NCBI GenBank assembly: GCA_002281535.1
Contig: NCGD01000016.1
Coordinates: forward strand, 150,311-214,310
DNA: 64,000 nucleotides
Source of the DNA: Sphingomonas sp. 28-63-12
GTDB taxonomy: Bacteria; Pseudomonadota; Alphaproteobacteria; Sphingomonadales; Sphingomonadaceae
Reading direction: 5' to 3'
Positions within the stretch are counted from its first letter, which is position 1; each line of letters opens with the position of its first letter. The notes beneath the pieces are model-generated. The model was not told the DNA's origin. It searched no databases and saw only the letters and a program-made list of their open reading frames with translations. This document shows positions 1 to 14,900 of this stretch, in pieces. Both the position numbers and the translations under genes were made by a program.

Positions 1-7
1 CAGTGAT

Positions 8-658
8 ATGGTCGCGTTGATGGAAGAGCATCGGGTCGACACCGGTTCGACGCTCAACCTCTTCGCGCGCCGCCTTCGCGAGGCGGGCCGGATATCGAAG
101 GCCGGTCGCGGGCGCGGCGCGGCCTCGATGACATTCACGGACGCGTCACGGTTCGCGATCGGTTGCTTCGCGACTGATCACCCCGAGCAAGCGCCGATTG
201 CCGAAGCCGCCTTTAGCGCCACGGTGCTGACCGACATCGGCATTGTGACGGGGCAGTGGCAGCTTGAAGCAAGCGAGGGCGAACCGTTCGACCGCGCATT
301 GGCGAAGCTGCTGCAGGCCCTGTCCAGAAACGAGCCTGCAGCAGAGCGAGCCGCAAAAGCTGCCGAAGCGAAGGCTGAAGGGAAGGGGGGCCTTTATCTC
401 CGCCCCCAGTTCGACGTCGAGATCAGTCGCAGCGGCGTCAGCGCCGCCATCCGGGGCGGCGGATCGCATTGGATATTCCACCATCCGAAAATGGCCGCGA
501 TGATCAGCGCCGAGACTTACCTTGAGGCTGCTGCACTCGAGGCAGAATTCAATAGCGCGACCCTGCCCTTTCGCACCGGGAAGAACGTGAAGGTCGGCAT
601 GGACGCCAGGCTCCTTTACGCGCTCGCCGACCTTGTCGGTCCGGACGCCGCGCTATGA
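8..658 (+). CDS. Unknown protein of the integrated element, possibly 5'-partial
   Basis: I do not recognise a characterised family. The 216-residue reading has a basic N-terminal third (residues 15-45, rich in Arg and Gly, with an FARRLREAG segment) that could be a nucleic-acid-binding helical region. An Ala/Glu-rich linker follows around residues 108-126, then a C-terminal part without recognisable catalytic motifs. The reading frame is open to the left edge of the window, so the ATG at 8 may not be the real start. Its stop overlaps the start of the next small ORF (ATGA). Position just upstream of the capsid gene suggests a regulatory or packaging accessory role, but that is a guess. Confidence 0.6.
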   Translation: MVALMEEHRVDTGSTLNLFARRLREAGRISKAGRGRGAASMTFTDASRFAIGCFATDHPEQAPIAEAAFSATVLTDIGIVTGQWQLEASEGEPFDRALAKLLQALSRNEPAAERAAKAAEAKAEGKGGLYLRPQFDVEISRSGVSAAIRGGGSHWIFHHPKMAAMISAETYLEAAALEAEFNSATLPFRTGKNVKVGMDARLLYALADLVGPDAAL

Positions 659-858
659 CGACACCCGCCCCATTTCCTGCGGCCGACGCGACGCGGCCAA
701 AAACGAGAAGTCCGATGCCAGGGGCGGACGGCGCTGGATGCATGCCGTTTCATGGGGTTCAATCGGGCAACGTCGCACCAATCCATCGCCGTGAGGCTGA
801 AGGTGATCACCGCGCGGGGGGCAGCGTGCCCCCCGCCAGCATGAAGGACGACCAATGA
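655..858 (+). CDS. Small hypothetical ORF coupled to the capsid gene
   Basis: This 67-residue ORF begins with an ATG overlapping the stop of the preceding gene and ends with a TGA overlapping the capsid ATG, so both junctions are ATGA. Such double overlap is typical of translationally coupled phage genes. The protein is Pro/Ala-rich and has no recognisable domain or membrane segment. It could equally be a non-coding spacer that happens to stay open, as the sequence is GC-rich. Its only support is its position and the exact overlaps. Confidence 0.35.
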   Translation: MTTPAPFPAADATRPKTRSPMPGADGAGCMPFHGVQSGNVAPIHRREAEGDHRAGGSVPPASMKDDQ

Positions 859-2111
859 AAACGAGTGACTTGATCGAACAGCGAGGGGCGATCGTCGCTC
901 GCATGACTGCCGCCCACGAGGCCGACGACAATGGCGCGTTCACCTCTGCGGAAACTGAGTTGCGGACCATCGACGAGAAGCTGAGCCGCGCGCGGACCAT
1001 CGACGCGCTCGACCGTGCCGAACCCGGCAATGTCATCACCGGGGACGGGAAGCTGGAAAGCGAGCTGCGTTCGCGCTTCTCAATCGTCCGCGCCATGGCG
1101 ATGCAGGCCGGTATCGGCGGGCACGACTATGGCTTCGAACGCGAAGTGCAGCCCGACCTCGTGAAGCGCGCGGGCCGCGTTGCAGAGGGCGTGCTCGTCC
1201 CCACCGAAATCTTCCTCGAAAAGCGCGTTCTCACCACGGCCGCACCGAGCGGCGGGCCAGGCGGCAACCTGATCGCGACCGAGCTGCACGGCGAAATGTA
1301 TTTCGACCGGCTGCGCGCCGCGCTCAAGGTCGGCTCGCTTGGCGCTACGGTGCTCAACGGCCTGGTCGGCAACATCGATATCCCCGGCCTCAAGACGAGC
1401 GTGACGGCGGGCTGGGTTGCCGAGAACAGCGCGCTTTCGACGTCGGATGCCGAGTTCCGCAAGGTATCGATGACGCCAAAGCACGCGGGCGGCATCACGG
1501 AAATGAGCCGCAACATGCTCCAACAAACCAGCCGTGATGTTGAGCAGCTCGTGCGCAATGACTTCGCTCAAGTTCTGGCCAGCATCGTCGATATCGCCGC
1601 CATTGCGGGCACCGGATCGAGTAACCAGCCGCGCGGCATCCTGAACACGTCGGGCATTGGCAGCGTGGCGATGGGCACGAACGGCGGGGCCTTCACGGCG
1701 GACGCGTCCCGCGACCTTATCGGCAAGATCGATATCGCCGATGGCCCGATGACCTCGCGGGCATTTCTCACCAACAACAAGGTGAAGGTCGCCACGTCGA
1801 AGCTGAAGGATGGCCAGGGCAACTATCTCGGATACGGCCCTGAGGGCGTCTTTGCCGGGGAGCGGGTCGAGTTTTCCGGCAACGTGCCGAGCAACCTCAC
1901 CAAGGGCACCGGGACGGCACTGAGTGCCATCCTCTATGGTGATTGGTCTCAATTGCTGATCGGCTATTGGTCGGCATTCGACTTGCTCGTGAACCCCTAT
2001 GAATCGACCGCCTACAGCAAGGGCAACGTGTCCGTTCGGGCAATGCTCACCTGCGATACCGCGGTGCGCTACGCCGAGGCGTTCGCGGCCGTCACGGACG
2101 CGGTGGCGTGA
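855..2111 (+). CDS. HK97-family phage major capsid protein
   Basis: The 418-residue protein has the layout of HK97-fold capsid proteins. The first 65-70 residues are charged and helical (the delta/scaffolding region normally removed by the prohead protease). The coat domain follows, with the family-typical block around residues 245-265 containing GTGSSNQPRGI. Length matches the family (about 380-430). It would form the procapsid shell. The gene overlaps the small ORF upstream by ATGA and its stop overlaps the start of the protease gene, so the head genes are very probably co-translated. A second internal domain with GNVPSNL near residue 340 is also typical of HK97-like coat proteins. Confidence 0.93.
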   Translation: MKTSDLIEQRGAIVARMTAAHEADDNGAFTSAETELRTIDEKLSRARTIDALDRAEPGNVITGDGKLESELRSRFSIVRAMAMQAGIGGHDYGFEREVQPDLVKRAGRVAEGVLVPTEIFLEKRVLTTAAPSGGPGGNLIATELHGEMYFDRLRAALKVGSLGATVLNGLVGNIDIPGLKTSVTAGWVAENSALSTSDAEFRKVSMTPKHAGGITEMSRNMLQQTSRDVEQLVRNDFAQVLASIVDIAAIAGTGSSNQPRGILNTSGIGSVAMGTNGGAFTADASRDLIGKIDIADGPMTSRAFLTNNKVKVATSKLKDGQGNYLGYGPEGVFAGERVEFSGNVPSNLTKGTGTALSAILYGDWSQLLIGYWSAFDLLVNPYESTAYSKGNVSVRAMLTCDTAVRYAEAFAAVTDAVA

Positions 2112-2662
2112 TGGGGGCCGGGGGCGATATGGAGCGGCGGACCTTCAGCGAGGTCCGCACTGCGGGGCGGCGTATCGAAGGATATGCCGCCACCTTCAAC
2201 AGCGATGCGCAGATCGGCGACTTTGTCGAGCGTATCGCCCCCGGCGCTTTCACGGACGCGCTGGCTGGCGACGTGCTGGCGCTGCTGGATCATGACACCG
2301 GCAAGGTGCTCGGTCGCACGCGATCGGGCACCTTGCGCCTGTCCCAGGACAGCCGTGGCCTAGCATTCTCGCTGGACGTCCCCGACACTCAGGCAGGGCG
2401 CGACGTGCTTGAGCTGGCACAGCGTAACGACCTTGGCGGCATGTCTTTCGGCTTCCGTATCCCCGCCGGTGGCGAGGTCTGGCAGGACAACACCCGGACG
2501 CTTCGTTCGATCGACCTGAAGGAGATCAGCGTGGTGTCGGCATGGCCAGCCTACCCGGACACATCGATCGCGCTGCGGGCACGCGGTGGAGACCCGTCTA
2601 AGACGGCCCGCCATCGTGCCCGCGCGATCCGCATTGCGGAGGCTATGCAATGGGCATCATGA
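2111..2662 (+). CDS. HK97-family prohead protease
   Basis: This is a small serine protease of the U35/HK97 gp4 type that trims the capsid scaffold domain during head maturation. The sequence shows the family signature RIEGYAATFN, then IAPGAFTDAL, a His in LLDHD (about residue 61) and the Ser in GGMSFGF (about residue 112). These are the expected catalytic His and Ser. Length of about 180 residues is normal. The start is uncertain: GTG 2108, ATG 2111 (chosen, overlapping the capsid stop) and ATG 2129 (giving MERRTFSE, closest to the family N-terminus) are all in frame. The 3' end overlaps the portal gene by 13 bp. Confidence 0.9.
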   Translation: MGAGGDMERRTFSEVRTAGRRIEGYAATFNSDAQIGDFVERIAPGAFTDALAGDVLALLDHDTGKVLGRTRSGTLRLSQDSRGLAFSLDVPDTQAGRDVLELAQRNDLGGMSFGFRIPAGGEVWQDNTRTLRSIDLKEISVVSAWPAYPDTSIALRARGGDPSKTARHRARAIRIAEAMQWAS

Positions 2663-3810
2663 ACAGCCTTGCGGCGATGCTGCGTATCGAGAAGCGCAGC
2701 ACCTCCGAACCCTCTTGGGCTGCACTGGCCCCCGGCGTTGGATACTTCGCTGGGGTTTCAGCGCGGACGGCGGAAAACCTCTCCTCCGTGCTGGCGTGCG
2801 TCAATGTGATCGCCGATTCTCTCGCCAGCATCCCGGCGCTCGTCTATCTCCGCGATGGCGATGGACGGATCGAGGCACCCAGCCATCCGCTCCAGCGCCT
2901 CACCCGCGACGGCGTCAATGTCAGCATGAGCTGGCCCGACTTCATCTCACACTTCGTCGCGTCGACGTTGCTGACCGGCAACGGACTTGCAGAGATTGTC
3001 CGCACCGGCAACGGGCAGTTGGCGGGGCTGGTCTATATCCCGTGGGGCATGGTGACGGTGTCCCAGTTGGCCAGCGGACGGCTTGCCTATGATGTCAGCA
3101 ATCCGCGCGGCGAGCGTCGCCGATTGCTGCAGGGCGAAGTGCTCCACCTTCGCGACCGCACCGATGACGGCCTGATCGGCCGATCGCGGTTGAGCCGTGC
3201 CGCCGACGTCGTCGGGGGCGTGTCGGCGTCCAACGGCTTCGCGAAGAGCTTTCTCGAAAAAGGGGCAGCGCCTAGCGGCATTCTGAAGTTCGACGGCACG
3301 ATCACAAAGGAGCAGATCACCCAGCTGCGCGAGCAAATGGCGTCGCGCAATCAGGGCGTCGACAATGCGGGCCAGGTGATGATCCTCGACGGCGGGATGG
3401 AGTGGACTGCGACCCAGATCAGCCCTGAGGACGCGGAGCTGCTGGAAACCCGGAAGTTCGGCGTCGAGGAAATCTGCCGCCTGTTCCAGGTACCGCCCCC
3501 GCTGGTGCAGGACTATAGCCACAACACCTTCACCAACTCCGAAACGGCGGGCCGATGGTTCGCCATGTTCACCCTCGCACCGTGGGCGCGCAAGATCGAG
3601 GCGGAGTTCGCCCGTAGCGTGTTCGCCGCCGGCGGAAGCTACGAGGTGGAATTCGACCTGTCGGGCTTCCTGCGCGGGGATCCTCAAACGCGCTGGGCCT
3701 CGCACAAGATCGCGATCGACGCAGGCGTCCTGGACGCCGAAGAAGTCCGCGTGATCGAGGGCTGGAACAAGCGCGCAACGCCTGCGGAGGTGCCCAATGG
3801 CAACGCCTGA
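2650..3810 (+). CDS. HK97-family phage portal protein
   Basis: The portal forms the dodecameric ring at one capsid vertex through which DNA enters and leaves. The 386-residue protein carries family hallmarks: ENLSSVLACVNVIADSLAS near the N-terminus, a central region with AKSFLEKGAAPSGIL (around residue 200), and the FGVEEICRLFQVPPPLVQ segment followed by THNTFTNSET-like sequence (around residues 270-300). Length is typical of the 380-430 residue class. The gene starts inside the end of the protease gene and its last codons overlap the connector gene, so it belongs to the same coupled head-gene cluster. Confidence 0.93.
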   Translation: MGIMNSLAAMLRIEKRSTSEPSWAALAPGVGYFAGVSARTAENLSSVLACVNVIADSLASIPALVYLRDGDGRIEAPSHPLQRLTRDGVNVSMSWPDFISHFVASTLLTGNGLAEIVRTGNGQLAGLVYIPWGMVTVSQLASGRLAYDVSNPRGERRRLLQGEVLHLRDRTDDGLIGRSRLSRAADVVGGVSASNGFAKSFLEKGAAPSGILKFDGTITKEQITQLREQMASRNQGVDNAGQVMILDGGMEWTATQISPEDAELLETRKFGVEEICRLFQVPPPLVQDYSHNTFTNSETAGRWFAMFTLAPWARKIEAEFARSVFAAGGSYEVEFDLSGFLRGDPQTRWASHKIAIDAGVLDAEEVRVIEGWNKRATPAEVPNGNA

Positions 3811-4075
3811 AATCGTCACGCTCTATCAGACGAAGGAATTCCTTCGCGTCATCGCCGACGACGAGGACGGGATGATCATGGATTTGATCGTTGCCGCCAC
3901 GGAAGCCGTTTTGACCGTCGCGGACGGCTTCAACCCGGAAGGGGAGCCATCGGCCCGCATTCGGTTGGCGATCATGACGCACGTGGCGCAAGCCTATCTC
4001 AACCGTGAGGATGGCGCTGATTTGCCCAAGTCGGCAGCACGCCTGGTGCACCCACTGCGGAGCTTGACGGTCTAA
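3797..4075 (+). CDS. Phage head-tail connector protein (gp6-like)
   Basis: This 92-residue, largely helical protein resembles the short gp6/YqbG-type connectors that bind below the portal ring. It has the TLYQTKEFLRVIADDEDGMIMDLI opening pattern and a second helical half with ARIRLAIMTHVAQAYLNRE, as seen in this family. It starts within the last codons of the portal gene and its stop overlaps the ATG of the next small ORF. In a complete phage, neck and tail genes would follow. None do here, which is the main reason to think of a tailless satellite. Confidence 0.8.
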   Translation: MATPEIVTLYQTKEFLRVIADDEDGMIMDLIVAATEAVLTVADGFNPEGEPSARIRLAIMTHVAQAYLNREDGADLPKSAARLVHPLRSLTV

Positions 4076-4254
4076 TGGCGACGCGCCCCGCCTCCTTCCG
4101 GCAGTCCGACCTGACGCGCGCCGTGAAGGGCGTTGCAGCAGCCGGGGTGCGTGTGGGGCGGGTCGAGATCGACCCGAACGGCAAGATCATCGTTATGGCC
4201 GAGACGCTGCTGCAGGCGACATCGTCGGGTAGCTGGGACGAGGTGCTGCGGTGA
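4075..4254 (+). CDS. Small conserved-looking hypothetical protein before the integrase
   Basis: The ORF encodes 59 residues beginning MATRPASFRQSDLTRAVKG and continuing with VGRVEIDPNGKII. It starts on the connector's stop codon (TAATG) and overlaps the integrase GTG start by 4 bp. I recall similar short proteins, with an A/P-S-F-x-Q-x-D-x-T-R-A core and an EIDxxGKI strand, being common beside integrases in alphaproteobacterial prophages, but no function is known to me. The size and position would suit a small DNA-binding or recombination directionality factor. That is speculation. Confidence 0.65.
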   Translation: MATRPASFRQSDLTRAVKGVAAAGVRVGRVEIDPNGKIIVMAETLLQATSSGSWDEVLR

Positions 4255-5351
4255 AGAAGCGTGCCCTGCCTCAACATGTCAGCGAATTCACGGATAGTCG
4301 GGGAAAGCGGCGGCTTCGCTATAGGCGCAAGGGCTGCAAAACCTATTACTTCAAGTGTCTGCTGTGGTCGCAAGGGTTCATGGAGGAGCTGCGCGCCTGC
4401 ACGGAAGGAGATGCAGCGACCCCAGCCGCGATTGGTGCCGACCGCATAGTGCCAGGCTCGTTCAACGCACTGATCGCGCAATACCTTCGAAGCTCGAAAT
4501 ACGCGAACCTCAAGCCCTCCACCAAGACGACTTACAAGGGCATCATTCGTCGATTCCGTGAGCAGCACGGCCACCGGATGGTCGCGGAGCTACAATTTCA
4601 GCACGTCGAGGCGATCTTGACGAAGATGGCGGACACCCCATCGGCCGCCAACAACCTGCGAAAATTCCTGCGCATGCTCGTCAACTATGGCTGCAGGCTT
4701 GGCATGCGGAAAGACAATCCGGTGTCCCTCACGGAGCCGTTGAAGGTCGATAGCGACGGCTTCCACGCGTGGACCGAGGAGGAGGTCGTGCAATTTGAGG
4801 AGCGTTGGGCGATCGGCACCAAGCCGCGCCTTGCGCTCGGGTTGCTGGTTAACACCGGCCAGCGCCGATCCGACGTGGTTGTCATGGGACGCCAGCATCG
4901 CAAGAACGGCCGCATTCGCGTCAAGCAGGTGAAGACCGGAAAGGAACTCCTAATCCCCGAGCATCCCGACCTCACGGCTATGCTCAACGCGCTCCCTGTC
5001 GATAACATGACGTTCCTGCTCACGTCGCATGGCAAGCCGTTCACGCCAGCCGGGTTCGGCAATTGGTTCCGCGAGGCCTGTGACGAGGCCGGACTCCCCC
5101 AGTGTGCCGCCCATGGCCTGCGAAAGGTGATGACGCGTCGGCTGGCGGAGCTGGGCCTTTCGCATCAAGTCATCAAGTCGATCACCGGCCATGAGACTGA
5201 CAAGGAGATTGAGCGCTATTCGAAATCGGCTGAGCAGACCCGACTTGCCGATCAGGCGATGAGCGCTCTCACACAATCAACGTTGGCTAACCGAAAAATT
5301 TCGTTAGCCAAACCGAGCCATAAGTCCCTCAAAGGAAAGCATAAACTATGA
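4251..5351 (+). CDS. Tyrosine-type site-specific integrase
   Basis: This recombinase integrates and excises the element. With the GTG start at 4251 it is 366 residues long. An Arg-rich N-terminal arm-binding part precedes a SAM-like core-binding domain (about residues 70-165) and the catalytic domain. The catalytic set is visible: Arg205 in TGQRRSD, a Lys in the KTGKELL strand, His288 and Arg291 in AHGLRK, His314 in ITGHET, and nucleophile Tyr323 in IERYSK. It overlaps the small ORF upstream and ends 4 bp from the 3' end of tRNA-Ser, pointing towards it, as expected for an integrase adjacent to its own attachment site. A basic C-terminal tail follows the active-site Tyr. Confidence 0.95.
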   Translation: MKKRALPQHVSEFTDSRGKRRLRYRRKGCKTYYFKCLLWSQGFMEELRACTEGDAATPAAIGADRIVPGSFNALIAQYLRSSKYANLKPSTKTTYKGIIRRFREQHGHRMVAELQFQHVEAILTKMADTPSAANNLRKFLRMLVNYGCRLGMRKDNPVSLTEPLKVDSDGFHAWTEEEVVQFEERWAIGTKPRLALGLLVNTGQRRSDVVVMGRQHRKNGRIRVKQVKTGKELLIPEHPDLTAMLNALPVDNMTFLLTSHGKPFTPAGFGNWFREACDEAGLPQCAAHGLRKVMTRRLAELGLSHQVIKSITGHETDKEIERYSKSAEQTRLADQAMSALTQSTLANRKISLAKPSHKSLKGKHKL

Positions 5352-5355
5352 GGGG

Positions 5356-5400
5356 TGGCGGAGCGGGAGGGATTCGAACCCTCGATACGCTTTTGACGTA
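5356..5400. other. Candidate attachment site (attR/attL) at the 3' end of tRNA-Ser
   Basis: The integrase stop codon is immediately followed by the reverse complement of the tRNA-Ser 3' end, CCA included. Tyrosine integrases of this type usually recombine within the T-arm/3' end of tRNA genes and rebuild an intact tRNA on one side. The exact crossover and the partner repeat at the other end of the element cannot be seen, because the left end is outside the window. Confidence 0.55.
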
Positions 5401-5446
5401 TACTCACTTTCCAGGCGAGCGCCTTCGACCACTCGGCCACCGCTCC
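5356..5446 (-). tRNA. tRNA-Ser(GGA)
   Basis: Read on the minus strand, the sequence folds as a class II tRNA. The acceptor stem is GGAGCGG/CCGCTCC with discriminator G and an encoded CCA. The D-arm is GTGGCCGAGTGGTC, the anticodon stem-loop has a CTGGAAA loop giving anticodon GGA, there is a long variable arm containing a TACG...CGTA stem, and the T-arm is GGGTTCGAATCCC. The 91-nt length and long variable arm are diagnostic of tRNA-Ser. It reads UCC/UCU codons. The integrated element lies against its 3' end and a cyclophilin gene starts 2 bp beyond its 5' end on the other strand. Confidence 0.97.
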
Positions 5447-5448
5447 GC

Positions 5449-6318
5449 ATGCACTCGCCACCGCCCGCACCGGTTCAAACGCCGACCGCGGCGCCCCCCA
5501 CGGCCACCCAGATCGCCGATGCCGCGCCGTTATCGGCCTGGGCAGCGATCGCCGATGACGACCTGATGCTGATCGACTTTGCCGATGGCAAGCGCGTCGC
5601 GATCTGGCTGGCGAGCGGCTTTGCGCCGGTGCATGTCGCCAATATGCGCAGAATCGCCCGGGCAGGCTGGTGGAACGATGCCAGCGTCTACCGCGTGCAG
5701 GACAATTACGTCACGCAGTGGGGCGACGCGACCGAGGCCAAGCCGCCGGCGGCTGGCATCGCGCTCACCCCGCCGCCAGAATATGAATGGCCTGCGGCGG
5801 GCCGTTCGATCGTGCTGAATCGCTATCGCGATGCCTATGCCAGCGTGACCGGCTTTTCAGCCGATGGCTGGCCGCTGGCGGGCGACGGCAAGCAGCAATG
5901 GTTGCCGCATTGCTATGGCATGGTCGGCGTTGCGCGCAATCTGGCGCCCGATACTGGCACCGGCGGCGATCTCTATACTGTGATCGGCCATGCGCCGCGT
6001 CATCTTGATCGCAACATCGCGCTGGTCGGCCGGGTGATCGAAGGGATGGGCGCGCTGTCGGCATTGCCGCGCGGCACCGGCGGCGGGCTTGGCCTGTACG
6101 AGGACCCGGCCCAGCGCGTGCCGATCATCCGGGTGACGATCGCCAGCGATCTGCCGGGCGCCGAGCGGCCGCATTTCGACTATATGAAGCCGACCTCCCC
6201 CGATTTCGCGCGCTATCTGGAGGCGCGCGCCAATCGCGCGCCGCCCTTTTTCACGGTGCCCGCGCATGCCGTGGATCTGTGCAACCTGCCGGTGCCCGTG
6301 CGCGCCGCCAAGCGCTAG
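5449..6318 (+). CDS. Cyclophilin-type peptidyl-prolyl cis-trans isomerase, N-terminus probably shortened
   Basis: The protein (289 residues as read) has cyclophilin-like features: GKRVAIWLASGFAPVHVANMRRIARAGWWNDASVYRVQDNYVTQWGD and a C-terminal Arg/His-containing lobe with TGGDLYTVIGHAPRHLDRNIALVGRVIEGM. These correspond to the usual strand order of the family, in which the protein speeds proline isomerisation during folding. Related sphingomonad proteins normally begin with a signal peptide before the PPPAPVQTP-like linker. Here the first ATG sits at that linker and 2 bp from the tRNA 5' end, leaving no room for a ribosome binding site or signal peptide. The gene may therefore be a truncated copy or may use an unrecognised start. 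It converges with the lipoprotein gene downstream. Confidence 0.8.
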   Translation: MHSPPPAPVQTPTAAPPTATQIADAAPLSAWAAIADDDLMLIDFADGKRVAIWLASGFAPVHVANMRRIARAGWWNDASVYRVQDNYVTQWGDATEAKPPAAGIALTPPPEYEWPAAGRSIVLNRYRDAYASVTGFSADGWPLAGDGKQQWLPHCYGMVGVARNLAPDTGTGGDLYTVIGHAPRHLDRNIALVGRVIEGMGALSALPRGTGGGLGLYEDPAQRVPIIRVTIASDLPGAERPHFDYMKPTSPDFARYLEARANRAPPFFTVPAHAVDLCNLPVPVRAAKR

Positions 6319-6328
6319 CACGCGCCCG

Positions 6329-6925
6329 TTATTTTCCCACCCAGTCGGCAACCTCGCTGGCGATGCGGTTGGCCGCACGGTTGAGGCCTTCACTGGTGCT
6401 TTGCGGGGTGACGGTGCCAATCGGTTCGCGCGCTTCGAAAATGCGCTTTTCAAAGACCTTGGCGTCGCTGCGGCTGAGCGTGGCGTCATAGGTGACGACG
6501 GCGTCGCCGGTCATCGCATCGACCCCGAAATTGCGGAGTTCGCCGCCGAGCCGGGCGCCGGGATCATAAAAGGACTGGGCCGGCGTCAGCACCACGCGGC
6601 CGGTCTTGGCGCCGATCGTATCGGCCAGCAGCCGGGCGAACAGCCGCGCCGGCGGTTCTGACCATTGCGCGTCCTTCACATAGGCAATTGAGGTTGGCGA
6701 GGTCTGAACGGGCACCCGCACCGTGGCGATGGCGGCGGGAACGCTGGGCAGCTGGATGGTGATCGTCGCCGCGCTCGCCGAATTGCTGGTCTGGCCCGGG
6801 GTGAGCGGGGTCGCGGCGGTCAGCGTGAGCAACATCGGCGGCGGCGTTGCGCCGAAACTGATGCAGCCGGTGAGAGAGGCCATCGCCAGCAGCGCTGGCA
6901 GGAGCTTGATCGATCGGTGATTCAT
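6329..6925 (-). CDS. ABC-type transport auxiliary lipoprotein of the Mla/MCE system
   Basis: This is the last gene of a four-gene minus-strand operon with MlaE-, MlaF- and MlaD-like proteins. The 198-residue product begins with a lipoprotein signal and lipobox LTGC (Cys at about residue 21 from the ATG at 6925). The mature part resembles the PqiC/ABC-type transport auxiliary lipoprotein family (PF03886-like), with segments such as VRVPVQTSPTSIAYVKDAQWSEPPARLFARLLADTIG and AQSFYDPGARLGGELRNFGVDA. It probably sits on the periplasmic face of the outer membrane and links the MCE protein to it for phospholipid movement. A GTG 12 bp upstream is an alternative start that overlaps the mlaD stop. Confidence 0.85.
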   Translation of the reverse strand: MNHRSIKLLPALLAMASLTGCISFGATPPPMLLTLTAATPLTPGQTSNSASAATITIQLPSVPAAIATVRVPVQTSPTSIAYVKDAQWSEPPARLFARLLADTIGAKTGRVVLTPAQSFYDPGARLGGELRNFGVDAMTGDAVVTYDATLSRSDAKVFEKRIFEAREPIGTVTPQSTSEGLNRAANRIASEVADWVGK

Positions 6926-6933
6926 CGCGGGCC

Positions 6934-7923
6934 TCACTTTTTCGACGCTTTGGGGGCTTTGCCCGGCGTGTAATTGGGCAATTTGGGTGCGCCGAGGATC
7001 GATCCTGCACCCCCTTGGTCGATCTTTTCGGCGACTGAGGTGAGCGAGGCCGCCATGATTCGAAGATCATGGACCAGCTGGCCGACCTCGGGGACGGTCT
7101 GCTTGGAAAAGGCCTGCACGCCGGGCCGCGCGTCGCTGACCAGGGCATCGAGCTGCTCGAGGCTGTGCTGGGCGGACGCGATCGCCTTGTTGAGATTGGC
7201 GGTGACGGGCTTGATGTCGCTTTTCAGCACCCCGTCGGCCGAATTGGCGAGCCTGGTGATGGCCGCGGCGGCTTCGCCGGTCTGCTTGATCGTCACCCGC
7301 GTCTCGGCAATCGTCGCGCCCAGATCGCCCGACCGGTCGGCCAGCGCCTTGGTCACACGATTGGTGTTGTCGAGGATGCCAGTGAGCGAGGCCATGTTCT
7401 TGTCCGACAGCACATCGGTCAGCCGTTCGGCGAGGTTGGAGAGCCGTTCGAGCAATTGCGGTGCCGAACTGAGGAGCGCGCCGAGCCCGCCCTGGCGCGT
7501 CGGGATGACGGGTACCCCGAACGGGCAGGCGCTTTGCGGCCTGACGCTGGGGCAGCTGATCGGCGGCTGATTCTTGATCGCGCCGTCGAGCAGGATTTCG
7601 CTGACCCCGGTAAAGCCGACACCCTGGATCGTCGCGGTGGTACCCTGCAGCACCGGCGTTTCCTGGTTCACGCTGATCCGCACGCGCACGAATTGCGGAT
7701 CCTCCTTGAATAGCGCGATTTCCTTCACCTGGCCCGAGGCAACCCCGCTGAACGAGACGTTCGAGCCCTTGTTGATGCCGTTGACCGACTGTTTGAAGAA
7801 GATGTCATATTCCTTGTCGGCAGTTCCGCTCAATCGGGCGAGCCAGACGATGAACAGCGCCATCACGGTGAGCAGAATCAGTACCACGGAGCCGACAAGG
7901 ACGTGGTTCGAGCGGGTTTCCAT
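6934..7923 (-). CDS. mlaD: MCE-family periplasmic lipid-binding protein (MlaD-like)
   Basis: The protein carries lipids between membranes as part of the MlaFEDB-type ABC complex. With the ATG at 7921-7923, which overlaps the stop of the ATPase gene, it is 329 residues long. It has one N-terminal transmembrane helix (about residues 8-30, HVLVGSVVLILLTVMALFIVWLA) and an MCE domain (about 38-120) with the NGINKGSNVSFSGVASGQV and TATIQGVGFTGVSEILLDG signatures. A long helical C-terminal region ends in a Lys-rich tail. The long helical region is typical of alphaproteobacterial MCE proteins. Upstream in-frame codons exist but would overlap the ATPase gene and lack similarity, so the shorter start is preferred. 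Confidence 0.92.
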   Translation of the reverse strand: METRSNHVLVGSVVLILLTVMALFIVWLARLSGTADKEYDIFFKQSVNGINKGSNVSFSGVASGQVKEIALFKEDPQFVRVRISVNQETPVLQGTTATIQGVGFTGVSEILLDGAIKNQPPISCPSVRPQSACPFGVPVIPTRQGGLGALLSSAPQLLERLSNLAERLTDVLSDKNMASLTGILDNTNRVTKALADRSGDLGATIAETRVTIKQTGEAAAAITRLANSADGVLKSDIKPVTANLNKAIASAQHSLEQLDALVSDARPGVQAFSKQTVPEVGQLVHDLRIMAASLTSVAEKIDQGGAGSILGAPKLPNYTPGKAPKASKK

Positions 7924-8744
7924 CAGTTGGCCGTCCCTGACTGTGCGTGCGCGGCGGCACGTCGATCTGCATTTTCCTGGGTCGCGGTAGCGGCGCGACC
8001 GCGCGGTCCATTGAAATATTCCTGGATCCATGGATGGTCCAGCGCGAGCAATTCATCGATCGTGCCAACGGCGATCACCTTTTTGTCGGCGAGTACCGCG
8101 ACGCGATCGCAAATCGCGTAGAGCGTATCGAGATCATGCGTGATCAGGAACACCGTCAGCCCCATCGTGCGCTGCAGCGACAGCGTCAGCTCGTCAAAGG
8201 CGGCGGCACCGATCGGATCGAGCCCGGCGGTCGGTTCGTCGAGGAACAATAATTCGGGATCGAGTGCGAGCGCGCGGGCCAGGCCGGCGCGCTTGCGCAT
8301 GCCGCCTGACAGCTCGGCGGGATATTTGGGGCCAGCCTCAGCGGGCAGGCCGGTCATCACCACCTTGTAGGCGGCAATCTCGTCGAGCAGGCCCTGGTCG
8401 AGCTTGTGATAGAATTCACGCAGCGGCACCTGGACATTTTCAGCAACGGTCAGCGTTGAGAACAAGGCGCCACCCTGAAACAGCACGCCCCAGCGCCGGC
8501 GAATATCGATCGTCTCGCCTTCGTCGCGGTCAACAGTCGATTCGCCGAACACCTTCACCTCGCCGGAATCGGGGCGATGCAAGCCGATGATGGCGCGCAT
8601 CAGCACCGATTTGCCGGTGCCCGAACCACCGACAACGCCAAAGATCTCCCCGCGACGGACCTGCAGGTCTAGCCCGTCATGGACGACTTGCTCGCCAAAA
8701 CTGGTCTTGAGGCCCTTGACCGAGATGATCACATCGCCCGCCAT
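7923..8744 (-). CDS. mlaF: ABC transporter ATP-binding protein (MlaF-like)
   Basis: This cytoplasmic ATPase powers the Mla-type phospholipid transporter. From the ATG at 8742-8744 the protein is 273 residues. It shows Walker A GGSGTGKS (residues 39-46), the Q-loop in LFQGGALFSTLTVAENVQ, an ABC signature LSGGMRKRAGLARALA, Walker B LLFLDEPTAGLDP and the switch His in LITHDLDT. The LFQGGALFS and PLRE patterns are characteristic of the MlaF subfamily. It overlaps mlaE by ATGA at its start and mlaD at its end, so the subunits are probably co-translated. Confidence 0.94.
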   Translation of the reverse strand: MAGDVIISVKGLKTSFGEQVVHDGLDLQVRRGEIFGVVGGSGTGKSVLMRAIIGLHRPDSGEVKVFGESTVDRDEGETIDIRRRWGVLFQGGALFSTLTVAENVQVPLREFYHKLDQGLLDEIAAYKVVMTGLPAEAGPKYPAELSGGMRKRAGLARALALDPELLFLDEPTAGLDPIGAAAFDELTLSLQRTMGLTVFLITHDLDTLYAICDRVAVLADKKVIAVGTIDELLALDHPWIQEYFNGPRGRAATATQENADRRAAAHAQSGTAN

Positions 8745-9853
8745 CAGATCCAGCCCAGCCAGGTGAAGAACACCGCGAAAAACGCATCGAGCACGATCAC
8801 CAGGAAGATGGCCTGCACCACCGCTGATGTGGTGCGTTGGCCGACTTGCTCGGCGTCGGATTCGACAAGCATGCCCTGGAAACACCCGGCGATAGCGATA
8901 ATCGCGCCAAAGACCGGTGCCTTGACGAGGCCGACATACAGATCGGTGATCGGCACGACTTCACGCAGCCGTTGGATGAAGGTGACGGGCGGAATCCCGA
9001 GCGAAATCCAGCATAGCAGCCCCCCACCGATGATCGCGACGACTGAGGCGTAGAACCCGAGCAGCGGCATCATCAGCACCGCCGCCAGCACGCGCGGCAG
9101 CACCAGCGCCTCCATCGGCGACACGCCGATCGTGCGCATCGCATCGATTTCCTCCGTCAGCTTCATCGTGCCAATCTGTGCCGCAAATGCCGACCCAGAG
9201 CGGCCCGCCACCATGATCGCTGTCATCAGCACGCCCAACTCGCGCAGCGTAATGCGGCCGACCAGATTGATGGTGAATACCTCGGCCCCGAACTGGCGCA
9301 GCTGCACGGCGCCCTGCTGGGCGATCACCAGCCCAATCAGAAAGCTCATCAGCCCGATAATCCCGAGCGCCGAGACGCCGACCACTTCGAAGCGCTGCAC
9401 CGTTGCGTTGAAGCGAAAGCGCTTGGGATGGGTGATGACGTTGAAAAAAGCGAGGCAGGTCGCACCGAAAAAGCCGAGCAGCCCATACATCGTCTTGAAC
9501 GCGATCATGGTCGCTTCGCCGATTTCACCGAGCACGCGGACCAGCGGACCGGCGGATTCGGGGCGCATCGCCACTTGCTGGTCTGCGGCGGAAACCTGAT
9601 CGAGCAGATGCGTGGCATCGCGGCTGAGCCCCTCGACCCGGGCCCCATGTTCCGCCGCGAAACGGTGAATCAGCCAGGCGCCAACAGTATCGATACGTTC
9701 GACCTTGCTCAGATCGAGGCGATCGACCTTGCCCTCATAATTGCGCAGTCGATTGGGAAAATCGCCGAGCTTGGCCAACGACAAGCTGCCACTAAAGCGC
9801 AGCGTGTCGGCCCCGCCGACATTTTCATGCGAAAATTCAGCCATGGCGCTCAT
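8744..9853 (-). CDS. mlaE: MlaE-family ABC transporter permease with N-terminal STAS-like domain
   Basis: This is the inner-membrane permease of the lipid transporter and the first gene of its operon. The 369-residue protein has an N-terminal domain of about 100 residues resembling STAS/MlaB, with the NRLRNYEGKVDRLDLSKVERIDTVGAWL pattern. The permease domain follows, with about five hydrophobic segments and family motifs such as FEVVGVSALGIIGLMSFLIGLVIAQQGAVQLRQFGAE and GRSGSAFAAQIGTMKLTEEIDAMRTIGVSPMEALVLPR. The fused STAS domain probably replaces the separate MlaB protein of E. coli. The gene is divergent from the HAD hydrolase, 62 bp away. Confidence 0.94.
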   Translation of the reverse strand: MSAMAEFSHENVGGADTLRFSGSLSLAKLGDFPNRLRNYEGKVDRLDLSKVERIDTVGAWLIHRFAAEHGARVEGLSRDATHLLDQVSAADQQVAMRPESAGPLVRVLGEIGEATMIAFKTMYGLLGFFGATCLAFFNVITHPKRFRFNATVQRFEVVGVSALGIIGLMSFLIGLVIAQQGAVQLRQFGAEVFTINLVGRITLRELGVLMTAIMVAGRSGSAFAAQIGTMKLTEEIDAMRTIGVSPMEALVLPRVLAAVLMMPLLGFYASVVAIIGGGLLCWISLGIPPVTFIQRLREVVPITDLYVGLVKAPVFGAIIAIAGCFQGMLVESDAEQVGQRTTSAVVQAIFLVIVLDAFFAVFFTWLGWI

Positions 9854-9915
9854 CGCGCCCTTCTTTGCTGCAAACAGGCTGGATCGGCAAGAACATAGCT
9901 GTCTATGGGTGGGAC

Positions 9916-10590
9916 ATGCAGCACATCGCCATTTACGACATGGATAAGACGATCACCCGGTCCGCGACCTGGACGCCGTTTTTGCGCCATGCTGCCGGTC
10001 ACCGCGCGCCGTGGCGGCTTGCCATGCTGCCGTTGCTCGGCGGGGCTGGGGTTGCTTATCTCGCCGGACTGCTCGGCCGCGGCCCGTTGAAGCAGCTCGC
10101 CTTCCGGCTGATGCTCGGCCCCATGGTGCCCGCCGCCGCGATGGCCGATCTGGCCCAGAGCTTTGCCGAACAGATCGGTGCCAACGGGGTTTGGGCGCAG
10201 GCCCGCGCCCAGATCGCCCGCGATCGGGCAGATGGCTGTCGGCTGATACTGGCGACCGCGTCGTTTCGTTTCTATGTCGCGCCGATCGCCGCGTTGCTCG
10301 GGTTCGATGCGGTGATCGCTACCAATTCGCAGCGGGGACCCGATGGCGCGTTGTGCGCCGGGATTGCCGGTGAGAATTGCTACGGCCCGGCCAAATTGCG
10401 GATGATCGAAACATGGCTTGCCGATCAGGGGATCGCACGCGGGCAGGCGACGATATCCTTCTATTCCGATCACGTCTCCGATGCGCCGACGCTGGCCTGG
10501 GCGGATCGGCCCTTCGCCGTCAATCCGCACGCGCCGCTCCGGCGGCTGGCGGGTACGATGGGGTGGCCCGTACTCCACTGGACGACATAG
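9916..10590 (+). CDS. HAD-superfamily subfamily IB hydrolase
   Basis: Likely a small-molecule phosphatase. The 224-residue protein starts at the ATG at 9916 (MQHIAIYDMDKTITR), where motif I DxD is residues 8-10 and the DMDKTIT core is typical of subfamily IB (SerB/CicA-like). Motif II lies in ILATAS, and motif III/IV in SFYSDHVSDAPTLAWADRPFAVNP, the common end of this family. The cap domain is helical with hydrophobic stretches. The substrate cannot be read from the sequence. The gene converges with the DUF445 gene, with only 8 bp between stops, and is divergent from the Mla operon. Confidence 0.85.
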   Translation: MQHIAIYDMDKTITRSATWTPFLRHAAGHRAPWRLAMLPLLGGAGVAYLAGLLGRGPLKQLAFRLMLGPMVPAAAMADLAQSFAEQIGANGVWAQARAQIARDRADGCRLILATASFRFYVAPIAALLGFDAVIATNSQRGPDGALCAGIAGENCYGPAKLRMIETWLADQGIARGQATISFYSDHVSDAPTLAWADRPFAVNPHAPLRRLAGTMGWPVLHWTT

Positions 10591-10598
10591 CCGCCACG

Positions 10599-11864
10599 TC
10601 AGAGCAGCAAATCGACACTGTGGATTACGAGCCCGACCAGCCCGCCGACAATGGTGCCGTTGATGCGGATGAACTGCAGATCGCGGCCGACGGCATTTTC
10701 GACGCGCCGGGTGATCGTGTTGGCATCCCAGGCGCGAATGGTTTCGGAAACGAGCCGGACGATCGAATCGCCATAATCGGCCGCCGTGCCCACCGCAGCG
10801 CGCCGGACGAACCGGTTGATCGTGGCCCGAAGCCGGGCATCGTCCTGCAGCGTTGTGCCGAGCTGCTGCAGCGCCTCACCCAGTTTACCCTGGCGACCGG
10901 CATCGGGATCGCGCGCGATCCGGAGCATGGCGTGGCGCGCCGATTCCCACAGGCCATCAAGCCAGTTCTGCATCGCAGGATTGTCGATGATCTCCAGCTT
11001 CAGCAGTTCGATGCGCAACTGCATCGGCGCATCGAACTGGAGATCAAAGGCAAGCTTTGCCAGCCCTTCCTCGGCCTTGGCCCGCAACGGATGGCCAGGA
11101 TCTTCGGCCATGTCCGCCAGCATCTGGTCGAGCCCGTCGATGATCTTGTTGGCGAGCGTTTCGTCCAGGCCGGTCCAGCGCATGATCGATCCGGCGCGCT
11201 CGTGCACCATTGCCCGAATCAGGTGCTCGTTGGCGGAAAGCGTGCGCCCCGCCCAGCGGACGATGCCATTGAGCAGCGGTAAATGGCGGTCCTTGGCGAT
11301 CGCCGCCTCGAGCGCCTGGCCAAGCAGCGGCGCGATATCGAGCGTGCGCAGCCGCTGGCCGATCGTCGCCTTGACCATGCCGCCGAGCCGCTTCTGATCA
11401 AAGGCTTCAAGCAAATCGGCGGCAAGCCGCGAGGCACCGCGCCGCAGCCGGCCATCGCCGCCCGAGGGGCTGGCCAGCCAGCGCCCCGCCGATGACGCCA
11501 GGTCAAGCCGCCGCATGCGGCGCGCGACGACGCCGGGCACCAAAAAATTGTCGCGCAGGAACGCGGCGAGATTGTCGCCGATCCGGTCCTTGTTGCGCGG
11601 AATGATTGCGGTGTGCGGAATCGGCAGGCCAAGCGGATGGCGGAACAACGCCGTGACCGCGAACCAATCGGCCAGCCCGCCGACCATGGCGGCTTCGGCA
11701 AAGGCACGAACAAAGCCAAATGCCGGCTGCACCCCTTCAAGGTTGCGCGCGGCCAGATAGACCAGCGCCATGCCAAACAGCAGCCCTGTCGCAATGGCAC
11801 GCATCCGAATCAGCGCGGCCGGGGGGGCTTGATCGAGGCGGGCAGGGCGGGCGAACAGGTTCAT
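10599..11864 (-). CDS. DUF445-family membrane protein
   Basis: The 421-residue protein matches the DUF445/YjiN architecture. An N-terminal hydrophobic region has the family pattern FVRAFAEAAMVGGLADWFAVTALFRHPLGLPIPHTAIIP followed by NKDRIGDNLAAFLRDNFL. A long helical middle follows, and a C-terminal hydrophobic hairpin with the FIRINGTIVGGLVGLVIHSVDLLL end. These are strong family signatures. The function is not established in bacteria; it is thought to be an inner-membrane protein. It is a single gene, convergent with the HAD hydrolase and 55 bp downstream of the RND permease on the same strand. Confidence 0.9.
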   Translation of the reverse strand: MNLFARPARLDQAPPAALIRMRAIATGLLFGMALVYLAARNLEGVQPAFGFVRAFAEAAMVGGLADWFAVTALFRHPLGLPIPHTAIIPRNKDRIGDNLAAFLRDNFLVPGVVARRMRRLDLASSAGRWLASPSGGDGRLRRGASRLAADLLEAFDQKRLGGMVKATIGQRLRTLDIAPLLGQALEAAIAKDRHLPLLNGIVRWAGRTLSANEHLIRAMVHERAGSIMRWTGLDETLANKIIDGLDQMLADMAEDPGHPLRAKAEEGLAKLAFDLQFDAPMQLRIELLKLEIIDNPAMQNWLDGLWESARHAMLRIARDPDAGRQGKLGEALQQLGTTLQDDARLRATINRFVRRAAVGTAADYGDSIVRLVSETIRAWDANTITRRVENAVGRDLQFIRINGTIVGGLVGLVIHSVDLLL

Positions 11865-11919
11865 TGCCGAAACAATCCCTCAGCGGCCGGATTGTTCACA
11901 AGCAAATTCGTCCGACCGC

Positions 11920-14900
11920 TCACTCGGCGGGCTGCGGTTCGCCATCCCCGGAGGCATAGCCAATCGGCCGCGGGCCAGTTGGCTTGATATCGATCACTGG
12001 CACGCCGTCATCGCCCGCCTTGTAGGTCAGCAGGCGACGGCCAAGCCGTGGCCCGATCCATTCCTCAATCCCGACGGCGATGCTGAAGCCCGCCGGCACG
12101 ATCACGAGGGTGAGCAAGGTGGACAGGATCAGCCCGCCGATCACGGTAACGCCCATCGGCGCACGGAAGCTGCCGTCCCCGGTCAAGGACAGCGCGATCG
12201 GCACCATGCCGGCAACCATTGCGATCGTGGTCATCACGATCGGCTGAGCGCGCTTGTGGCCGGCATCAAGGATGGCAACCGTCTTGTCGACGCCCTTGTG
12301 CATTTCCTCCAATGCGAAATCGACCAGCAGAATCGAGTTCTTGGCGACGATCCCGAGCAGCATCAGCAGACCGATGAACACCGGCATCGAGACCGGGTCC
12401 CCCGTGAGCCGCAGAGCGATCGCGCTGCCGAGCGGTGCGAGAATCAGCGACCCCATGTTAACGAGCGGGGGCATCACCCGCTTGTAGAGCAGCACCAGTA
12501 CCGCAAAGACGAGCATGACGCCGGCAATGACGGCGATCACGAAGTTAAGCAGCAATTCGGCCTGCCATTTGGCCTCGCCAATCTTGAGCTGCGTGATGCC
12601 GATCGGCAGGTTCTTGAGCGCGGGCAGTTCCTGGATCTTGGGCATCGCGTCGCCGGAGACCTTGCCTGGTGCAAGATCGGCGCCGACGGTGATCCGCCGG
12701 GTCTGATTGGCGCGCTGGATCAAGGTAGGCCCGGCGCCGAAGCCGATATCGGCGATAACCTTGAGCGGCACCGAGCCGCCATTGGCCGTCGGCACCGGCA
12801 AATTCTCGATCGTGGACAAATTGCGCCGTGAATCTTCGGACAGCGCGACACGGATCGGAATCTGCCGATCGGACAGCGAGAATTTCGCGACATTCTGGTC
12901 GATATCGCCGAGCGTGGCGATTCGGATAGACTGGCTGAGCGCCGCCGTGGTCACGCCCATATTGGCAGCAAGATCCATCCGTGGCCGGATCGTGATCTCG
13001 GGGCGCTTGAGATCGCCGTTGACCCGCGCAGCGCGAAGTTCTGGCAAGCCGTTCATCTCGGTGACGAGCCGGTTGGCGACATCGTTCAACTGGACCGGAT
13101 CGGTGCCGCCAAGCGTGATCGTAATGTCGCGTCCCGAACCGCCCCCACCGCCGCCATTTTGCGACTGGAAATTGACCCGGGCATCAGCGATCCTGGTCAG
13201 CTGCGGCGCATAGGCACGTTCGAATTCAACGCTGGTGCGGCTGCGGTTGTGCTTCAAGGTGATGAAAACGCTGGCGCTGCCGATGTTGATGTTGGTGAAG
13301 GCATTGGCAACTTCAGGCGCGTTTTTGATGACGTTGGTAACGCGTAGCGCGACCTCCTGTGTTTGCTTGAGTGTCGATCCCGGCGCGAGCTGGATGCGGA
13401 TTCGACTATAATCGGTGTTGATCGTTGGCTGAAAAGTCAGCGGAATCGGTTTGAGCAGCCCGGGCACGCCGGCAAAGGCGACGAACGTCCCCAGCAGCGC
13501 CAAGCCACCGATGCCGACGGTCTTCCAGCGATGGCTGACCGACCAGCGCAGCGCCTCCATATAGCGGTCCATCCACCAGCCTTCGCCGTGGCTGGCGCTG
13601 CCCTTGGCCTTCAGGAAATAGGCGGCAAGCATTGGCGTGATCAGGCGCGCGACGGCCAGGCTGATCAGCACGGCGGCCACCACCGTGAGCCCGAAATTCT
13701 TGAAGAACTGGCCTGACACGCCGGGCATCAGGCCCACGGGCAGGAACACGGCGACGATCGACATCGTCGTTGCCAGCACGGCGAGGCCGATTTCGTCGGC
13801 GGCGTCGATCGCGGCCTGATACGCAGATTTACCCATCCGCATATGACGCACGATATTTTCGATTTCCACGATCGCATCATCGACCAGCACGCCCGCGACC
13901 AGGCTGAGCGCTAGCAGGCTCAGGGAGTTGAGCGAAAAGCCCATCAGATCCATGAACCAGAAGGTCGGGATCGCCGAGAGCGGAATGGCGATCGCCGAGA
14001 TGATCGTTGCGCGCCAGTCGCGCAGGAAGATGAACACGACGATGACGGCCAGGATCGCGCCCTCAATCATCGCCTCAATTGCCGAGTGATATTGGGTACG
14101 GGTGTAATCGACGCTGTTGAACAGCTCGGTGAACTTGACCTTGGGGTTCTCCTTTTCGAGATCCTTGATCGCCTTGGTCGCTGCGTCATAGACGGTAACG
14201 TCGGAAGAGCCCTTGGCCTTTTCGATGCTGAAAGCCAGCACCTGGTGCCCGTTCTGAATCGCGAGCGAACGCTGCTCGGCATAGAGATCGCGGACGGTGG
14301 CGATATCGGATAACTTGACCGTTCGGCCACTACCGGTGGCGATGTCGGTATCGCCGAGCGCAAAGGCGTTATGCGCGTTGCCGAGCACTCGCACCGATTG
14401 CTCCGAGCCTGCAATCTGCGCGCGACCGCCCGCCGCATTCAGGTTCGTCTGGCGCAACTGCTGATTCACCTGGACGGCGGTGAGCCCGCGCGACTGGAGC
14501 TTGACCGGATCGAGGATCACGCGAATCTCACGGCTGACGCCGCCATTGCGGCTGACCGCAGCAAGGCCCGGCACCGCGAGCAGGCGCTTCGACACGGTAT
14601 TATCGACATACCAGCTCAGTTCCTCGAGCGTCATGTCAGACGTCGATGCCGAGAGGTAGGCGATCGCATCGCCGCCAATGTCGACGCGCTGGACCTGGGG
14701 TTCCAGAATGCCGTCGGGCAAGTCGCTGCGGATCTGCGAGATCGCGTTGCGGACATCGTTTACGGCGCGATCGATCGGCGTGCCGATCGCGAATTGCACG
14801 AAGGTCGAGCTCGATCCCTCGCTGACGCTGGAATTGATCTCGTCGACGCCGTTGATACTGCGAATCGCCGATTCGATCCGCTGGGTGACCTGGGTTTCCA

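Follow-up and report, generated by a model that had tools for sequence, protein, structure and literature searches.

The window analysed here is a 64,000-nucleotide stretch of Sphingomonas sp. 28-63-12 (assembly GCA_002281535.1, contig NCGD01000016.1, positions 150,311 to 214,310), the left end of which lies inside an element of 10,598 bp. This element is very probably a complete integrated capsid-forming phage satellite, which makes its own small head and uses the tail and lysis functions of a helper; helper dependence and tail borrowing are the parts of this reading that we infer. A preliminary description of the window's first 5,355 nucleotides had proposed the right end of either such a satellite or a deleted prophage. 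The satellite was upheld, while a deleted prophage became very unlikely in view of recurrence, attachment (att) repeats, uniform size, purifying selection and circular forms. Positions are given for the window or, outside it, for the contig (C11 of genome G000; the window is G000:C11:150311-214310). The extended locus L003 spans C11:138000-157000, window position w being L003 position w + 12311, and L-numbers (L065, L134 etc.) are locus labels of this analysis.

The element was delimited by two identical 19 bp copies of the 3′ end of tRNA-Ser(GGA), one (attR) at window 5354-5372 with no strand assigned, the other (attL) at C11:145066-145084, where the leftward extension suggested in the preliminary description closed the element at the above length. 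The tRNA gene, tRNA-Ser(gga) (window 5356-5446, minus strand), is the integration target and stays whole. The right half of the element lies in the window; the left half, 5,245 bp reaching C11:145066, was retrieved from the same genome. Terminase and primase had been named as genes to look for in this left part, and tail genes as the finding that would speak against a satellite. No tail genes were found there; in order, the left part holds a primase-helicase (C11:145191-147056; AAA_25 5.8e-42, Toprim_2 under its cut-off), an open reading frame (ORF) of 85 amino acids (aa) (p85, C11:147053-147310), an HNH endonuclease (C11:147222-147716; 2.1e-7), the large terminase TerL (C11:147707-149359; TerL_nuclease 8.7e-38), two small reverse-strand genes of 76 aa (p76) and 58 aa (a weak ribbon-helix-helix match, E 7e-4, under the curated cut-off) and p121 (C11:149847-150212). 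These are followed by p222 (222-234 aa, conserved upstream of the capsid operon; plus strand, window 1-658, start at C11:150300, about 10-46 bp left of the window) and p67 (window 655-858, plus strand), which overlaps the p222 end and the start of the capsid gene.

The head operon then runs from the major capsid protein (MCP) of the HK97 family (window 855-2111; Phage_capsid 1e-36, phrog_617 5.9e-67) through the prohead serine protease (2108-2662; Peptidase_S78 1.4e-42), the portal (2650-3810; Phage_portal 9.9e-95) and an Ad1/gp6-like head-tail connector (3797-4075; phrog_40 Ad1 connector 6.7e-17, Phage_connect_1 1.1e-4) to the integrase-linked 59-codon ORF p59 (4075-4254; no Pfam or PHROG match) and the tyrosine integrase (4251-5351; Phage_integrase 4.9e-16). 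All of these genes lie on the plus strand, adjacent genes overlap by 1-14 bp, and Pfam or PHROG matches are clear for each except the 59-codon ORF. The succession read earlier from the letters, i.e. tightly overlapping capsid, protease, portal and connector, then one 59-codon ORF and an integrase at tRNA-Ser, is therefore correct. It had also been stated that HK97-type phages place the portal before protease and capsid and the tail genes after the head; this was seen in HK97 itself (portal-protease-MCP-connectors-tail) and, for portal-protease-MCP, in a Rhizobium prophage-plasmid.

Relatives were selected by MCP similarity. A viral-contig scan with the window MCP gave 23 relatives, a further scan with an alignment of 19 MCPs gave 168 confirmed ones, of which the best 80 were kept, and a genome scan gave 44 loci. 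The set used comprises 138 loci (the window element, 93 viral and 44 genomic), which are partly non-independent, as an element found in a genome was in some cases met again as a viral contig (for example L012/L065, L024/L091). Among the 44 genome loci, 39 are labelled Alphaproteobacteria (Sphingomonadales, Rhodospirillales, Acetobacteraceae, Rhizobiales, Caulobacterales and others); the other five, all metagenome-assembled, are three Desulfovibrio-type loci, one from Phycisphaerales and one from Clostridia. Named hosts with members are Sphingobium faniae, Sphingobium wenxiniae, Xanthobacter sp. NM-59 and Rhizobium sp. GN54. From the class, an evenly drawn sample of 385 genomes was compared with the MCP alignment: 30 matched at E <= 0.001, and 6, the window's own included, matched below 1e-50.

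The gene order, which had been proposed as something to seek in other genomes, recurs across many genera, sphingomonads included. MCP, protease and portal occur together in 132 loci, and in every one of these 132 they follow each other in this order on a single strand; because this order is kept throughout these loci (chosen by MCP similarity), it is not due to chance. The family thereby differs from an ordinary HK97-type prophage: the portal comes last (132/132 loci), and no tail genes follow the head. HNH and TerL lie upstream of the MCP in 67 of 70 loci holding both; in two (L116 and L132) they come after the portal, a placement like that in capsid-forming phage-inducible chromosomal islands (cf-PICIs). 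An integrase stands shortly downstream of the portal in 92 of the 103 loci with an integrase match, with a median of 478.5 bp (range 147-4,693 bp, 92 loci) between portal end and integrase start. Two members were observed in Sphingobium wenxiniae (NZ_VLKK01000004.1; L084 and L108), their capsid genes about 46 kb apart, and L157, part of an 18,150 bp contig, carries two different protease-portal sets, perhaps two family elements in tandem; a single repeated element was rejected for L157, since no period exceeded about 34% identity.

Boundaries were compared across the family using ARAGORN on 50 loci, 32 of which carry a tRNA gene at the far end on the opposite strand. With the window included, the tRNA lies within the set distance of the integrase end in 24 of 33 tRNA loci, spanning 11 isotypes; in the other nine no integrase end was found within that distance. 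A repeat of at least 16 bp, shared by the tRNA end and the far left side, was present in 28 of 28 loci with enough sequence, and in 19 of 756 crossed pairs, 11 of these 19 being between like tRNAs. The tRNA-bounded members have a median size of 10,439 bp, and 24 of 26 sizes fall within 9.8-11.4 kb (L099 and L103, with repeats 27-28 bp into the tRNA, were excluded; L019 and L020 are near copies). Four viral (metagenomic) contigs with terminal direct repeats (24 to 127 bp) close at 10,657, 10,167, 10,030 and 10,498 bp. In the viral collection, contigs longer than 15 kb number 0 of 23 and 2 of the 80 kept for the family; with the capsid of an ordinary sphingomonad phage the count is 28 of 44. L134 is best read as an excised circular form with a joined attP: its integrase meets the primase side across a single copy of a 16-base tRNA-Gln core, the same core stands at both ends of the integrated L072, a 395-codon frame crosses the contig joint of L134 at the portal, and no whole tRNA was found in L134.

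The integration site was also examined in relatives. The tRNA-Ser is identical (91/91 bases) in all seven relatives retrieved, the right-hand neighbour gene is in place in all seven, and neither the MCP nor the integrase of the window element was found at the same site in any of them; toward the side of the element, five of these stretches extend at least 15 kb and two about 3 and 0.6 kb. One of the seven, L293, also has the left-hand host genes ubiA and pmbA within 8 kb of the tRNA. Left of attL, a 153-aa N-terminal integrase fragment (Arm-DNA-bind_3; C11:144492-144953, L003 6493-6954) was observed, a relic of another element, earlier or adjacent, that used this tRNA-Ser.

Selection was estimated against L065. 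The ratio of nonsynonymous to synonymous substitution rates (dN/dS) was 0.11 for MCP, 0.20 for protease, 0.15 for portal, 0.31 for TerL and 0.35 for integrase; the primase (24% identity, dN/dS 0.61) is too distant to judge, and the connector is saturated. The low values of MCP, protease and portal indicate that the head genes are kept working. These results bear on the possibility that the element is an ordinary prophage in decay, its tail genes having been deleted. Such a remnant would likewise show no recognised tail or lysis genes, and the other integrase fragment left of attL marks the site as one with a history of turnover. Independent deletions, however, would not yield one order, whereas elements with this gene set, order and size, their frames open, occupy different tRNA genes in many genera, head-gene dN/dS is low, and circular forms occur; a decayed prophage is thus very unlikely.

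Tail, lysis and small terminase (TerS) genes were searched for in 135 unassigned ORFs of at least 45 codons, without heavy overlap, from 17 of the 28 delimited elements. Pfam took all 135 ORFs and returned 17 families, all listed, with no tail or lysis family among them. The PHROG scan took 126, nine large ORFs having been dropped, mostly judged to be replication genes by size and place, and gave 18 families, all listed, with no tail and no lysis; they comprise regulators, an excisionase family, one small terminase, head closure, adaptor, one 'virion structural protein' family and unknowns. As a control, 10 proteins of the ordinary prophage L189 were searched, for which tape measure, distal tail, major tail, tail terminator and head closure were detected, and the tape measure of another element in the window's genome was detected as well. 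Among the proteins of the window element, no tail, lysis or small-terminase family was matched. Elsewhere, one ORF among the 17 elements matches a TerS family, and the TerS of the EDL933 element, compared below, matches 1 of 138 loci, weakly.

For a satellite of this composition the following course is proposed. Upon infection by a helper phage, or induction of a helper prophage, the element would excise, replicate with its own primase, and build and fill its own small head; these heads would join helper-made tails, and helper lysis would set the particles free. Compatibility with the helper would have to reside in the connector, where head and tail meet. The head-closure protein of L019 shows 48% identity, across 80% of its length, to its counterpart in the Paracoccus siphophage vB_PthS_Pthi1 (the window element has no such protein), and MCP identity to phages is at most 35% among the matches listed (20 of 121 phage records). 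Connector and head-closure matches would fit siphophage helpers and are no proof of them. A connector tuned to helpers was considered and rejected: compared with L065, at an MCP identity of 90%, the connector is 45% identical, and TerL (50%), integrase (54%) and HNH (56%) are nearly as diverged, which indicates general mosaicism and proves no tuning.

Several observations weigh against the satellite reading. No helper is known, and the element is known here from sequence alone. From the host genome (assembly 94.8% complete), a second PF04860 portal and a PF13550 tail protein are both absent, and its only tape-measure match sits in another small element. It follows from the lack of a second portal and of a PF13550 protein that a helper would be external or encoded in the 5% absent from the assembly, a resident helper not being evident; on the same two grounds a gene transfer agent (GTA) was rejected as tail donor. 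The profile of the window connector matches 33 of 138 loci, and only a single, weak match to a phage was obtained for the connector itself. Profiles recognised TerL in 92 of the 138 loci and HNH in 71, the figures for the 44 genome loci being 27 and 23; some loci without these matches are cut by contig ends, and others may lack the genes or have replaced them. A small terminase was not recognised in the window element; p222 or p85 is possibly a divergent TerS. Finally, p85, p121, p222, p67, p76 and p59 are without function by search, and a very unusual tail protein could escape profiles, as could ORFs shorter than 45 codons. As a separate observation, L094 3830-14437 (Rhizobium sp. GN54) looks complete with HNH and TerL not recognised, and might borrow packaging enzymes too.

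The same six proteins, together with the confident but unmatched model of p222 described below, are what would speak for a complete minimal virus, with a tail or a tail-less entry device made of unrecognisably strange proteins. We consider this improbable, if less so than decay. The six add up to about 630 residues, far less than tape measure, tube and baseplate need, the gap between portal and integrase is short (median 478.5 bp, at most 4,693 bp in 92 loci), no lysis gene was recognised, and the connector and head-closure proteins are of the type found in tailed phages.

Further data are available for the small genes. The p222 profile matches 23 of 138 loci and that of p59 matches 24 of 138, the own locus being counted in each case, and p67 shares 35 of 67 positions with a 67-aa ORF at the same place in L065. 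From its position only, p59 is a candidate excision factor. The AlphaFold2 model of p222 (window 1-658) has a pLDDT of 89, and no match to it was found in PDB and BFVD at E <= 0.001; it may represent an undescribed fold. A tail or terminase role of p222 was considered and gained no support from a structural match at this threshold; p222 is possibly a regulator or a substitute for the small terminase. Defence cargo was searched for with PADLOC on 8 proteins, and only the primase was matched (DnaG-like model, 1e-8).

A second small element was observed in the same genome. L265 (G000:C44:about 4908-14452) ends at tRNA-Gly(ccc) and carries an MCP of the GTA/cf-PICI kind (401 aa), a tape measure (694 aa), an integrase and an ORF resembling p59. 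The only PF04860 portal found in the genome is that of the window element. L265 may be a capsid-plus-tape-measure satellite or a remnant.

Head size was considered on the basis of genome length. A capsid of triangulation number T = 3 is predicted at 11.8 kb (8.1-17.1), and the interval for T = 4 is 13.2-24.5 kb (Luque et al. 2020, PMC7762592); caution is advised by P4, which makes T = 4 at 11.6 kb (PMC7762592). The same source gives head diameters of about 43 nm for T = 3 and about 50 nm for T = 4. A 10.4 kb genome would fit T = 3 and lies under the T = 4 interval, T = 3 being a prediction here and not a result. If true, this would be a small architecture reported to be missing among tailed-phage capsids, and the uniform 10.4 kb size offers a direct test of whether tailed-phage-type T = 3 heads exist.

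A gene transfer agent is a chromosomal cluster without integrase and att sites and with tail genes; the window element differs from it by its integrase and att repeats, and tail genes were not found. The related idea of a domesticated, GTA-like head module kept by the host has in its favour that the head genes are located in the chromosome and that capsids of E. coli-kind cf-PICIs are related to GTA-like capsids. In the MCP tree, the MCPs of five cf-PICIs (E. coli and four Pseudomonadota outside Alphaproteobacteria) group with a sphingomonad capsid taken for that of a GTA (100/99), a link between cf-PICI and GTA capsids that has already been published (PMC12846349). The family MCP, however, lies outside this GTA-like branch and groups with that of Rhodobacter phage RcRhea (96/93), apart from the five sampled cf-PICI MCPs. 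As integrase, att repeats, many insertion sites and circular forms also contradict domestication, as does the patchy presence (an MCP match below 1e-50 in 6 of 385 class genomes, the window's own included), this is the least likely of the alternatives and highly implausible. It should be noted that cf-PICI capsids form three clades (PMC11389934) and that the MCP tree here sampled five cf-PICI capsids only.

In the portal tree (69 rows), inverted-order (41) and canonical (28) portals are split by one branch with support of 89/49, found in 87% of bootstraps. The quick portal tree had given 97 for this split, and the protease tree agrees weakly (56/43), so that one origin of the inverted-order portals appears less firm than the quick tree implied. 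The cf-PICI portals nest among alphaproteobacterial portals, a separate alphaproteobacterial clade being rejected (p-AU 0.032). The family and the E. coli-kind cf-PICIs would thus have a common head framework and different capsid lineages. We propose tentatively, as something possible rather than probable, that the family is a separate old satellite radiation centred on Alphaproteobacteria, with a different HK97 capsid in the portal-protease framework of E. coli-kind cf-PICIs and, by its size of about 10.4 kb, T = 3 heads. In that case, the satellite head order would seem to persist when the capsid protein is exchanged. Hosts of cf-PICIs are listed mainly among Enterobacteriaceae, Morganellaceae, Pasteurella and several Bacillota groups (PMC10803314), though cf-PICIs have also been described as widespread in Bacteria (PMC10690885). 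With a numerous branch in Alphaproteobacteria, parasitism of phages at the tail step would reach further bacterial groups. Among the open-licence titles listed, none dealt with capsid-encoding satellites in Alphaproteobacteria; members may already appear in an earlier survey.

For comparison with cf-PICIs, the EDL933 element (NZ_CP008957.1:1680329-1694760), which we take to be the cf-PICI prototype, was used. It has the order integrase, helix-turn-helix (HTH) gene, primase, MCP, protease, portal, head closure, connector, HNH, TerS, TerL. Common to both are own MCP, protease, portal, connector, HNH, TerL, primase and integrase, the MCP-protease-portal order, and the lack of tail genes, which are not annotated in EDL933; the EDL933 portal detects 131 and its protease 136 of the 138 family loci. 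In contrast, HNH and TerL stand before the MCP here (67/70) and after the portal in EDL933, Arsenophonus and four other genomes, the integrase ends the operon here and opens it in EDL933, and the family MCP is of another lineage than the five cf-PICI MCPs sampled, with no recognisable TerS in the window element. AlpA and Stl are regulators of the PICI type. HTH_17 was found in 4 of the 135 unassigned ORFs (17 elements), and the window element has the weak ribbon-helix-helix gene (E 7e-4). Both Stl and AlpA are named in PMC13230959 and PMC10803314, and the cf-PICI average of 14 kb (PMC10803314) compares with about 10.4 kb here.

Two plasmids were observed beside these islands. Arsenophonus nasoniae pArsFIN15 (L183, NZ_CP038627.1, 15,977 bp) encodes capsid, protease, portal, connector, HNH, TerS, TerL and a replication initiator, and is a plasmid-borne capsid satellite whose head and packaging module is of the cf-PICI type; a Klebsiella plasmid of similar length (NZ_CP069874.1, 15,995 bp) has a portal of this type too.

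Other known systems are similar in part. The Streptomyces satellites MiniFlayer and MulchRoom, compared by description (PMC10690885), also have their own terminase, portal, capsid and adaptor, and differ by a scaffolding protein, terminal repeats, virulent helpers and Actinomycetota hosts. The cf-PISP TG54 of Vibrio crassostreae likewise combines head and packaging genes without tails in a small genome (15.8 kb), but is plasmid-maintained, and its capsid clusters with gammaproteobacterial cf-PICIs (PMC13230959). Rhodobacter phage RcRhea, with an MCP 32% identical and within the family's MCP clade (96/93), has a full tail operon after its head genes and measures 36 kb. The window element is not classed as a cf-PICI because its gene order differs and no small terminase was recognised; it would function like one and has part of its head module in common with it.

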